Positions 8,059 to 49,867 of a stretch of DNA of 49,867 nt are shown here, one piece after another; position 1 is the first letter of the stretch; each line of letters opens with the position of its first letter. The notes below the pieces were generated by a model. The model did no database searches and was not told the DNA's origin. It saw only the letters and a program-made list of their open reading frames with translations. The DNA comes from Persephonella sp. (GTDB lineage Bacteria; Aquificota; Aquificia; Aquificales; Hydrogenothermaceae), in the NCBI RefSeq assembly GCF_015487465.1, contig NZ_WFPS01000065.1:1-49867 (forward strand). The letters are read 5' to 3'. Position numbers and translations under genes: made by a program.

Positions 8059-9993
8059 TTATACCTCTAATTTTTTGATCTGGAGTCTGAGGGCATTTGC
8101 AACAACCGTAACAGAACTGAAAGACATAGCTATACCTGCAAAAATCGGCTTTAAAAAAATTCCAAAAACGGGATAAAGTATTCCTGCAGCTATAGGAATT
8201 CCAATTATGTTGTAAATATAAGCCCAAAAAAGATTTTGTTTTATTATCCTAAAAGTTTCTTCAGAAAGTGAGTAAGCCTTAAGAACAGACTTCAGATCAT
8301 CTGACAGTATGATCATATCCCCTGCCTCCTTGGCAAGGTCTGCAGCCTGAAGCACAGCTATACCAACATCAGAAACAGCCATTGCAGGTGCATCATTTAT
8401 ACCGTCCCCTATAAACAATGTTTTTCTTCCTTTTTTCTGATAGCCCCTAACTATTCTGTATTTGTCTTCAGGGAGAAGCTCCCAGTAACATTCATCAAAT
8501 CCTGCTTCACTACAAACACTTTTTGCAGATAGCTTTTTGTCTCCTGTCAGCAAAACGGTTTTTATCCCTTTTTCTTTTAATTTTCTTATAACATACTCAG
8601 CATCTTTTTTCATTTTGTCCTCAAGGAAGAAAACCCCTACCACCTTTTTGTCAACGGCTATTACAACCTCTGTCCTGCCTTCAGGAAGATGTATTTTTAG
8701 ACCATTTTCTTCCATAAAATTCCTGTTTCCTATTATTACCTGTTTGCCTTCAACAACAGCCTGAACTCCCTTGCCAGGAAATGTTTTTAAATCCGTCACC
8801 TTTTTGTCATAAGAAGGTATGTGTGGCAAAATAGCATCAACAACAGGGTGTTTAGACTGGGAAATGACAGGATATGCAAATTTCAGCATATTTTTGTCAT
8901 TGACTATGCTTTCCACAACAGCAAATTTCCCCTCAGTTATCGTTCCTGTTTTGTCAAAAAAGGCTGTATCCACATCAGGTATTCTTTCTATAACGTCAGG
9001 ATTTTTTAGCAGAATACCCTCTTTAGCTCCCCTTCCAACAGATGAAACAACAGCTATTGGGGTTGCTATCCCCAGTGCACATGGGCAGGCTATAATAAGG
9101 ACGGAAACAGAAGTCAAGAAAGCTATATCAGGACGGTCAAAAATATACCACAAATCAAAAGTTATTATTGAAATTATAAGAATAGACGGAACAAACACAG
9201 CCACTATCCTGTCTGCAAGTTTTCCCACAGATGGTTTTTTTTCCTGAGCTTCAAAAAGAAGTTTTGTCATCTGGGAAAGAAATGTTTCTTTTCCTGTTCT
9301 TACAGCCTTTAAGATGATATATCCATCTGTAATAATAGTTCCCCCTATCACACTATCCCCTTCTTTTTTTAAAATAGGAAGAGACTCACCTGTTATCATT
9401 GATTGATCTACTTCTGCAGAACCTTCAATAATAACACCGTCAACAGGAATTCTCTCACCTACCTTAACAATAACCATGTCCCCCTTTACAATACTGTCAG
9501 CAGGAACTTTTATCTGTTTTCCATCAACAAGAAGTGTGGCTTCCTGAGGTTTAAGGCTAAGTAGTTTTTTCATAAAGTCTGTTGCCTTATTCCTTGAACG
9601 GCTTTCAAGATACCTTCCCATAAGAACAAAAGTTATTATTGATGCTGAGCCTTCAAAATAAAGGCTTCTCATCTGGGGAGAAAAAATTTCAGGAATAATC
9701 ATAACAAACAGAGAGTAAAAAAAAGCTGCAGATGTTCCAATAACTACAAGAAGGTTCATATCGGCGATCCTGTTTTTAAGTCCACCTAAGGCAGATCTGT
9801 AGAACTCAAAACCACAATAAAACTGGACAACAGAAGCCATCAGAAGAATAAGGATATTTTTGAGAGTAAAAAACTGGTTCAACAGAGGTTGTTCAAGGAA
9901 AGGAATACTGGAAAAATGGAGTAAAAATATGAAAATAGTAAGGGTCAGAGAAATAAAAAATCTTTTTCTAAGATCCCTCTCTTCCTCTAACTT
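8059..9993 (-). CDS. copA: CopA copper-exporting P1B ATPase, membrane/catalytic part (-1 frame)
   Basis: This frame carries the body of a copper-transporting ATPase: the actuator motif MITGESLP, transport motif IACPCALG, phosphorylation motif FFDKTGTITEG and hinge GDGINDAPAM. From the first possible internal start (TTG at 9882, no ribosome binding site) it has 607 residues but lacks the HMA domain and the first membrane helix. In the same frame the sequence continues upstream with KLEEERDLRKRFF and a hydrophobic helix (ISLTLTIFIFLL) back to the A9 run at 9992-10000, where it meets the end of the HMA gene. Joined by a -1 shift, the two give one protein of about 758 residues from the TTG at 10334, a normal CopA size. 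Whether the shift is programmed, a mutation or a sequencing error cannot be told here. Confidence 0.88.
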   Translation of the reverse strand, partial: KLEEERDLRKRFFISLTLTIFIFLLHFSSIPFLEQPLLNQFFTLKNILILLMASVVQFYCGFEFYRSALGGLKNRIADMNLLVVIGTSAAFFYSLFVMIIPEIFSPQMRSLYFEGSASIITFVLMGRYLESRSRNKATDFMKKLLSLKPQEATLLVDGKQIKVPADSIVKGDMVIVKVGERIPVDGVIIEGSAEVDQSMITGESLPILKKEGDSVIGGTIITDGYIILKAVRTGKETFLSQMTKLLFEAQEKKPSVGKLADRIVAVFVPSILIISIITFDLWYIFDRPDIAFLTSVSVLIIACPCALGIATPIAVVSSVGRGAKEGILLKNPDVIERIPDVDTAFFDKTGTITEGKFAVVESIVNDKNMLKFAYPVISQSKHPVVDAILPHIPSYDKKVTDLKTFPGKGVQAVVEGKQVIIGNRNFMEENGLKIHLPEGRTEVVIAVDKKVVGVFFLEDKMKKDAEYVIRKLKEKGIKTVLLTGDKKLSAKSVCSEAGFDECYWELLPEDKYRIVRGYQKKGRKTLFIGDGINDAPAMAVSDVGIAVLQAADLAKEAGDMIILSDDLKSVLKAYSLSEETFRIIKQNLFWAYIYNIIGIPIAAGILYPVFGIFLKPIFAGIAMSFSSVTVVANALRLQIKKLEV

Positions 9994-10000
9994 TTTTTTT
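9941..10000 (-). promoter_or_regulatory. Candidate -1 frameshift site in copA: A9 run with downstream hairpin
   Basis: In the leftward mRNA, the HMA frame reads GAA AAA AAA AGT TAG. Slipping back one base on A AAA AAA continues as AAG TTA GAG into the ATPase frame. Thirteen bases further on, AGGG-A-TC (9978-9972) can pair with GA-CCCT (9946-9941), stacked on AGAAA (9969-9965) with TTTCT (9953-9949), giving an imperfect hairpin. A9 runs also permit polymerase slippage. Confidence 0.55.
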
Positions 10001-10334
10001 CAAAACTTTCTGTATCTTCGGAGGCATCATAACCAAGATCTTTTATTCTCTGGATAATATCCTGTTTTGATATTTTAGAAGGATCATATTCAAAAACACC
10101 CCTTGATGTTGCCAGATTTACAGAAGCAGATATCACCCCATTTGTAGCTTTAAGAGTTGCTTCAATTCCTGCGACACAACCTGCACAGTGCATTCCTGAT
10201 ATGTTAAGCTCAAGTTTTTCAGTATCTCCAGAAGTTTTATCAGCCTTTCCATCTTTTTCCTTTTTTCCAAAGAAAAACCAGCCTATACCTCCTATCATCA
10301 ACATCGAGACAGAAAGAACCGCAACCTTATCCAA
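9987..10334 (-). CDS. Membrane-anchored HMA copper-binding domain (N-terminal part of CopA)
   Basis: In the unshifted frame this encodes 115 residues: a hydrophobic helix (about 4-22), a lysine-rich linker and one heavy-metal-associated domain with GMHCAGC, where Cys50 and Cys53 bind Cu(I). It ends with GYDASEDTESFEKKS and a stop immediately after the A9 run. I choose the TTG at 10334, six bases from AGGAGG (10341-10346); a GTG at 10337 is also possible. The longer frame to 10574 is rejected because it overlaps the alanine racemase gene. Without frameshift the product would be a tethered copper chaperone; with -1 frameshift it is the N terminus of CopA. Confidence 0.8.
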   Translation of the reverse strand: MDKVAVLSVSMLMIGGIGWFFFGKKEKDGKADKTSGDTEKLELNISGMHCAGCVAGIEATLKATNGVISASVNLATSRGVFEYDPSKISKQDIIQRIKDLGYDASEDTESFEKKS

Positions 10335-10424
10335 CACATTCCTCCTGATAAGTTTATAACCATAATTTATACCTGTTTTTAAGAAAAAGAAAGGGTTTTT
10401 TGATAAAATTACGAAAAGATAATT

Positions 10425-25840: not shown

Positions 25841-26203
25841 ATGAACGTTAGACTAAAGTTAAAAGAACAGATTTTAAATGAGATATTTAAGGTTTTAGAC
25901 AGAGAAAAGGTTTGTGTTGTGTTGTTTGGTTCTTCAGCGTTAGATAAAGGCTCCCCCTATTCTGATATTGATATTGGATTATTTTATACAGAAGGAATAG
26001 ATGATGAAACATTTTTAAATCTAAAAAAAAACTTAAATTACTGGGTTGACACAGCAAGAATTATTGACCTGGTAGATTTTCAGAGAGTAGATCTGGATTT
26101 TTTAGAGTTTGCTTTAAAAGGAGCTGTCATATGGCATGTGGGGAAAGAATTCTTAAAAAACTTACTCAAACAGAAAAAGCCTTTAGAAAACTTAAAGAGA
26201 TAG
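25841..26203 (+). CDS. MNT-domain nucleotidyltransferase (MntA-like antitoxin)
   Basis: A 120-residue minimal nucleotidyltransferase. The active-site motif is GS-x10-DxD, with Gly30-Ser31 and Asp42/Asp44 in YSDIDIG, exactly the spacing of MntA-type enzymes. A third acidic region (DTARIIDLVDF) follows. Such proteins modify or neutralise a HEPN partner, which is encoded next with a 73-base overlap. It starts two bases after ahcY, so the pair has been placed inside a metabolic operon. Confidence 0.85.
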   Translation: MNVRLKLKEQILNEIFKVLDREKVCVVLFGSSALDKGSPYSDIDIGLFYTEGIDDETFLNLKKNLNYWVDTARIIDLVDFQRVDLDFLEFALKGAVIWHVGKEFLKNLLKQKKPLENLKR

Positions 26204-48744: not shown

Positions 48745-49867
48745 ATGGAAGGGCACAAACATAAAGATCACAGAAAACATAAGCAACACGATCACACAGC
48801 ACACATACAGGATTTCAAAATAAGGTTTATTGTATCTATTATCCTGACTGTTCCTGTGCTTCTCCTTTCAGAAATGATACAGAGATGGTTCGGTTTTAGC
48901 ATAACAATACCTTTTCAAAAATGGGTTCTTCTTATTCTTTCTTCAGTAATCTATTTTTACGGCGGATATCCCTTTTTAAAAGGTCTTTTTGGGGAAATCA
49001 AAAAGAAACAGCCGGGTATGATGACACTTATAGGAACAGCTATATCTGTAGCATTTTTTTACTCTGCCTTTACGGTTTTTGCTGGCTTTGGGAAGGAGTT
49101 TTTCTGGGAGCTTGCAACACTTATTGATGTTATGCTGATAGGTCACTACATAGAGGCAAAAAGCGTTCTCGGGGCTTCAAGGGCACTTGAGGAGCTTGTC
49201 AAGATAATGCCCACAACAGCCCATCTTATCAAAGATTCCCAGGTGGTGGAGGTTCCTGTTTCAAAGCTAAAGAAAGGGGATATTGTTCTTGTTAAACCAG
49301 GTGAAAAGATACCGTCAGACGGTTTAGTCATAGAAGGAGAAAGCTATGTAAATGAATCTCTTTTAACAGGTGAGTCAAAGCCTGTTCTTAAGAAAAAAGG
49401 ATCAAAGGTTATTGGAGGATCAATTAATGAGCAGGGTGTTTTAAAGGTAAAAATAGAAAAAACAGGGGAAGAAACATATCTATCTCAGGTTATAAAGCTT
49501 GTGAAACAGGCACAGGAAAGCAGATCTAAAACACAGGATTTAGCAAATAAAGCCGCAGCATTTTTGTTTTATGTCGCTGTAATTGTTGGAACAATAACAT
49601 ATCTGTTCTGGTTTTTTAATGGCAGTCCGGATTTTGCCCTTGAAAGGGCTGTTACAGTTCTTGTGATAGCATGCCCCCATGCCCTTGGTCTTGCAGTTCC
49701 TCTTGTTGTTGCCCTATCAACAGCAATAACAGCAAAAAACGGCATTCTGATAAGAGACAGAAGAGCTTTTGAGCAGGCTAAAGATCTAACAGCTGTTATA
49801 TTTGATAAAACAGGAACATTAACAGAAGGAAAGTTTGGTGTAACAGATGTTGTTTCCTTAATAGATC
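48745..49867 (+). CDS. copB: CopB-type copper P1B ATPase, N-terminal part (runs off the window)
   Basis: At least 374 residues are visible and the frame is open at the window edge. The N terminus holds seven histidines in the first 20 residues (His4, 6, 9, 12, 15, 17, 20) instead of an HMA domain. The transport motif is Cys310-Pro-His312 (ACPHALG), which marks CopB-type pumps, in contrast with the CPC of CopA at 8059-9993. LLTGESKP and the phosphorylation site Asp354 (FDKTGTLTEG) follow. ATG at 48745. CopB-type pumps export Cu(I)/Cu(II) or Ag(I). Confidence 0.92.
   Translation, partial: MEGHKHKDHRKHKQHDHTAHIQDFKIRFIVSIILTVPVLLLSEMIQRWFGFSITIPFQKWVLLILSSVIYFYGGYPFLKGLFGEIKKKQPGMMTLIGTAISVAFFYSAFTVFAGFGKEFFWELATLIDVMLIGHYIEAKSVLGASRALEELVKIMPTTAHLIKDSQVVEVPVSKLKKGDIVLVKPGEKIPSDGLVIEGESYVNESLLTGESKPVLKKKGSKVIGGSINEQGVLKVKIEKTGEETYLSQVIKLVKQAQESRSKTQDLANKAAAFLFYVAVIVGTITYLFWFFNGSPDFALERAVTVLVIACPHALGLAVPLVVALSTAITAKNGILIRDRRAFEQAKDLTAVIFDKTGTLTEGKFGVTDVVSLID

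Follow-up and report, generated by a model that had tools for sequence, protein, structure and literature searches.

In Escherichia coli, -1 ribosomal frameshifting within the copper-ATPase gene copA gives rise to two proteins, CopA and CopA(Z) (Meydan 2017 and Drees 2017, as cited in PMC7558416 and PMC9548414). In this gene the zero frame encodes the pump and slippage leads to a short product of 70 amino acids (PMC5009743); the slippery site is accompanied by a pseudoknot and nascent-chain stimulators (PMC7558416). For dnaX of Thermus thermophilus, slippage during transcription was described at a run of nine A's (PMC1088944, PMC5009743). Slippage at the level of transcription also joins two open reading frames (ORFs) in Shigella mxiE and in IS transposases (PMC1088944), and two-ORF dnaX genes with A7-A10 runs are known from Chlorobi and other bacteria (PMC3711429).

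The split copA described here shares traits with each of these systems. As in E. coli, a single copper-ATPase gene would be recoded right after its HMA domain and would yield a short HMA protein besides the full pump. In contrast to E. coli, the zero frame leads to the short product and slippage would lead to the pump, i.e. the polarity is reversed; the site consists of nine consecutive A's (A9) and lacks a conserved stimulator, and the short product carries a membrane helix. As polarity, site and probable level of slippage differ, the locus seems to work like the E. coli copA system rather than to be a member of it. Thermus dnaX resembles the locus in its A9 run, its thermophilic host, the close stops in the alternative frames and the short and long products of one gene. 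It is, however, a different gene, and its unslipped mRNA encodes the long product, whereas the unslipped mRNA here encodes the short one and slippage is deduced by comparison. Slippage uniting two overlapping frames into one long protein is what mxiE and the IS transposases have in common with the presumed mechanism, although they encode a regulator and transposases instead of a metal pump and the mxiE run consists of U. In the Chlorobi-type dnaX genes the zero frame likewise stops past the A-run, so that the long product requires a shift, but these genes encode a clamp loader and their run length differs between species. A search confined to the open literature retrieved no published report of this copA case, and the GeneTack paper lists no copper or P-type entry in its main text.

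Organisation of the split copA locus

The window analysed is a stretch of 49,867 nucleotides from Persephonella sp. (contig NZ_WFPS01000065.1 of assembly GCF_015487465.1). Nine T's at 9992-10000 of the plus strand correspond to G AAAAAAAAA G on the minus strand, on which copA is encoded. The HMA frame ends AGT TTT GAA AAA AAA AGT TAG, the last five codons occupying 9987-10001. One base back, the codons AAA AAA AAG TTA GAG lead into the body frame, which opens with KKKLEEERDLRKR and continues to 8059. The product of the HMA frame begins with MDKVAVLSVSMLMIGGIGWFFFGKK, followed by the HMA domain, and its TTG start at 10334 (alternatively GTG 10337) lies six bases after AGGAGG. The joined frames encode 758 amino acids. 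The following features were assigned:

10341-10346, minus strand: AGGAGG ribosome-binding site of the HMA frame, read from the sequence; a similar site precedes the same start in most relatives
9987-10334, minus strand: zero-frame ORF of 115 amino acids with N-terminal membrane helix and HMA domain; TTG start with GTG at 10335-10337 as alternative, relatives using the homologous codon
10263-10325, minus strand: hydrophobic N-terminal helix VAVLSVSMLMIGGIGWFFFG, then KK..K; read by eye from the sequence and present in all orthologues listed
10026-10208, minus strand: HMA domain (PF00403, 67 bits) with GMHCAGC, its CxxC at 10176-10187
9992-10000, minus strand: putative slippery run of exactly nine coding-strand A's; length and phase exact in 30 of 31 genomes
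9987-9989, minus strand: zero-frame stop TAG closing the short product of an A9 mRNA; in all orthologues a stop follows 4-6 codons from the GAA codon
9968-9970, minus strand: third-frame stop TAG, by which A8 and A11 mRNAs would also give a short product; third frame shut within 5-12 codons in 26 of 26 copies
8059-9999, minus strand: pump body in the -1 frame, 646 codons and stop, with E1-E2 ATPase and hydrolase domains
9910-9960, minus strand: first pump helix FFISLTLTIFIFLLHF, preceding every start codon of the body frame
9880-9882, minus strand: earliest body-frame start codon (ATG, GTG or TTG), a TTG inside the second helix; unconserved

The TTG at 9882 is located 118 nt past the run start and beyond the first pump helix, and the 607-residue body ORF alone is therefore not the whole pump. 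An earlier note made from the window's sequence had read copA as broken at the nine-A run with the same HMA frame end, had derived a CopA of about 758 residues from one -1 slip, and had described the body as lacking its first membrane helix; the sequence agrees with it in all these respects.

Sequence criteria identify the split gene as copA, encoding a P1B-type ATPase predicted to export Cu(+). The fused protein of 758 residues reaches 572 bits with TIGR01511 (cut-off 397), and besides its two domains the body contains DKTG and CPC together with P1B-1 helix motifs, as expected for the P1B type. The fused protein also aligns with solved CopA structures, the match with the Legionella pump (3rfu) beginning at residue 117, just past the run. 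The window contains another heavy-metal P-type ATPase at 48925-49851; it shares about 40% identity with the copA body and runs off the contig end.

Conservation of the junction in Hydrogenothermaceae

Hydrogenothermaceae are hot-spring and vent bacteria. The body, used as query against 60 relatives, revealed same-family orthologues with an open frame of nearly always about 637-665 codons, never fused to an HMA domain. The HMA frame, searched against 136 genomes of the phylum, gave 31 matches, all of them separate frames and all from Hydrogenothermaceae; close copies are found in records named Persephonella, Sulfurihydrogenibium and Hydrogenothermaceae. In 30 of the 31 genomes, across eight genera and down to a body identity of 50%, the junction is exactly A9 plus a following G, always in the same phase. 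This count comprises 26 junctions read first, all with A9, and six further loci (four with A9, one with A8 and one repeat genome). The frame break is thus confirmed as real, and its recurrence is far beyond chance. The A8 run occurs in a fragmented metagenome bin (G108, L082). Another bin, of 55% completeness (G009, L086), keeps A9 in front of a pump body full of stops and frame breaks.

The 11 columns of G-A9-G do not vary among the 26 copies, whereas the flanks do. The run is held at nine by an AAG as third Lys codon behind the shift, found in every copy although AAA makes up 81% of the Lys codons of a closed relative. Both halves of the gene are under purifying selection, with dN/dS values of 0.07-0.14 for the HMA part and 0.09-0.19 for the body (three pairs). 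A maximum-likelihood tree with nine in-frame rows, too few to fix the root, groups all split copies in one clade (100/99) and implies a single state change; its subclades track the genera.

The absence of an in-frame, fused copA from all 31 genomes with the HMA frame, purifying selection on either half and the common clade of the split copies make programmed recoding at A9 close to certain. Programmed recoding had been suggested in the earlier note together with a comparison of run length and stop position across relatives, and the comparative data lend the proposal very strong support. Relatives with an intact fused copA and no A-run, which the note had named as the case against it, did not occur among the 31 genomes. 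As a practical consequence, gene callers may break up a genuine copper pump, or drop it altogether, throughout the Hydrogenothermaceae.

Explanations that dispense with recoding were weighed against the same data. Homopolymers are error-prone and the draft assembly of the window genome comprises 89 contigs, which could point to a sequencing or assembly error, but the identical break is present in 30 independent assemblies, some of them of one to five contigs. A dying pseudogene is contradicted by the dN/dS values of HMA part and body and by the catalytic and metal-binding motifs, which are retained in nearly all copies. Error and decay are ruled out by the 30 of 31 genomes and by the dN/dS values, and we consider either hardly conceivable. 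Alternatively, the locus might comprise two separate genes, the body being translated alone by re-initiation or from an internal start; overlapping genes near A-runs are indeed frequent in these genomes (A6 and A7 controls). However, the first ATG, GTG or TTG of the body frame lies 43-247 nt past the run at unconserved positions (26 junctions), while the first pump helix is found within 30 codons of the run, so that separate translation would cost the body one or more membrane helices in most species. The conserved KKKL-EEE stretch directly after the run, moreover, is coding in the -1 frame. Without a conserved start near the run, internal start and re-initiation were ruled out, and an arrangement of two independent genes is very improbable. 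No more credence can be given to phase variation, in which the length of the run in the DNA would switch the pump on (A10) or off (A9). A-runs can be hypermutable, and two further genes, cca-like and polB-like, show A9 or A10 in different genomes; yet A10 is absent from the copA junction in all 31 genomes, i.e. the on-state was never seen.

Slippage by RNA polymerase or ribosome

Given programmed recoding at A9, the level at which slippage would take place was assessed from run statistics of a closed genome of the same genus (G007, 1.91 Mb, loci L087-L182), with expected counts for its ORFs derived from synonymous shuffles. Sense A9 runs amounted to 7 versus 145 expected and A10 to A12 runs to 0 versus about 90, A7 was found at 1.08 of expectation, and A8 was depleted alike in the three codon phases (0.49, 0.51, 0.49). 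Sense runs of A9 or longer are about 20-fold or more depleted, with an onset at 8-9 bases and without phase preference. T9 runs are depleted as well (2 versus 41). Single A7 runs in the ribosomally slippery phase were observed at 0.90 and in-phase A_AAA_AAG at 1.09 of expectation; for all A_AAA_AAA heptamers, longer runs included, the values were 0.61 in phase and 0.70 and 0.54 out of phase, a depletion without phase effect. Since a ribosome would be phase-sensitive and a polymerase would not, such phase-blind purging of A-runs is polymerase-like, although part of it could stem from replication slippage and not from transcription.

Comparison of the copA copies revealed neither a conserved downstream RNA structure (mean folding z -0.7, 4 of 26 below -2) nor a conserved SD-like stimulator. 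With the third frame closed early in every copy, each mRNA other than A10 (or A7, A13) would give the short product. The phase-blind purging of A9 and longer runs, the in-phase seven-base sites that are not specially avoided and the missing conserved stimulator favour slippage of RNA polymerase, resulting in an A10 mRNA, over -1 slippage of the ribosome, and we regard transcription as the probable level. Three traits of Thermus dnaX recur here: about nine A's in a run of conserved length (30 of 31), near stops in the non-productive frames and, in G007, avoidance of runs in coding sequences irrespective of phase.

In a ribosomal mechanism the mRNA would keep A9 and a fraction of ribosomes would slip back at A_AAA_AAA to produce the pump. 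The closed relative possesses only tRNA-Lys(UUU), as does E. coli, which is in line with such slippage. The heptamer furthermore is correctly phased (GAA AAA AAA) in every copy and may serve as a ribosomal slippery site, and frameshifting in E. coli copA is ribosomal (PMC7558416). Seven A's would however suffice for the ribosome, yet exactly nine are kept; neither downstream structure nor upstream SD is conserved, and A8 and A9 are purged in every phase while in-phase A_AAA_AAG and single A7 are tolerated. Frameshifting by the ribosome is therefore unlikely, albeit to be taken seriously. An exact A9 held over family-wide divergence in a metabolic gene offers a clean natural test of transcriptional versus ribosomal slippage in thermophiles.

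Taken together, we assign a probability of roughly 0.7 to the complete explanation, namely that copA undergoes programmed -1 recoding at exactly A9 through polymerase slippage and yields the short HMA protein as well as the complete pump. RNA polymerase would slip on A9 and generate mRNAs of mixed run lengths. Those with 9 A's, and likewise with 8 or 11, would reach a stop within a few codons and give the membrane-anchored HMA protein of about 115 amino acids; those with 10 A's would have the frames joined and give the CopA of 758 amino acids, whose N-terminal part contains this HMA domain too. The short protein would probably act as copper donor and replace the CopZ gene, which is absent from Hydrogenothermaceae with the split gene. 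Product ratio, topology of the short product and chaperone role are what we infer from sequence.

Predicted short product and A9 breaks in other genes

The window genome contains one HMA domain only, that of copA. Most genomes of the sister family have an in-frame HMA-CopA and a separate HMA frame, often of 70-85 codons. A stand-alone HMA frame of CopZ size was found in none of the genomes with a split copA; the extra HMA matches of G017 and G024 belong to frames of 545-550 codons, probably mercuric reductases, or to a 101-codon frame beside one. This distribution fits a single gene supplying both the chaperone-like domain and the pump. With the best CopZ model the short product reaches 63.5 bits, below the curated cut-off of 95. 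As it also carries the N-terminal membrane helix, it would differ from a plain soluble chaperone, but it may still work like CopZ. The conserved hydrophobic N-terminal helix followed by positive residues suggests that its HMA domain is tethered on the cytoplasmic face. An AlphaFold model of the 115-residue product, built from a three-row alignment, was too poor for use (pLDDT 47).

Of the functional picture drawn in the earlier note, a part can be retained. A copper chaperone and a pump were proposed: frames for an HMA protein and for CopA are present, but the former carries a membrane helix and stays below the CopZ cut-off. The logic of E. coli copA applies as far as two products after the HMA domain are concerned, with opposite polarity. 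Polymerase slippage, mentioned there as possible, fits better than the A AAA AAA ribosomal site. If the explanation holds, it represents a second, mechanistically different way to obtain a copper pump and a copper-binding partner from a single gene, and suggests that the product ratio is important enough to be fixed by recoding.

Among the seven sense A9 runs in ORFs of G007, two sit at an ORF end with the -1 frame open, one in copA and one in a CCA tRNA nucleotidyltransferase-like gene. In the window genome and eight others, this cca-like gene has A9 followed by G, its HD-type C-part being open in the -1 frame; in the draft relatives G005 and G016 it has A10 in frame, and in other genomes no run. 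A gene resembling DNA polymerase B (polB-like) combines A9 with an open -1 frame in three genomes, is in frame with A10 in G008, and is in frame without an A9 run in G020. In the window genome (G000) these genes are located as follows:

contig C67, 5851-7436 (L193; further copies L185-L188, L190-L192, L194): cca-like split gene with A9 and -1 break
contig C8, run at 51994-52002 (L056, L197; further copies L198, L200): polB-like split gene with A9 and -1 break

Both are weaker cases than copA because their run varies between A9 and A10, a variation never seen in copA. One can tentatively speculate, with somewhat less than even confidence, that Hydrogenothermaceae exploit polymerase slippage on A9 runs to express several genes, namely copA, cca and the polB-like gene. 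In copA it would replace a separate copZ, and the two products known from E. coli copA would be reached independently, with the polarity inverted and the copper donor tethered to the membrane. The dnaX gene of the window genome was considered as a further split case and rejected for the part matched, which lies inside one open frame of 481 codons. A second A9 run of the window, at 26023-26031, is located inside a nucleotidyltransferase-like ORF (25841-26203) whose frame is unbroken.
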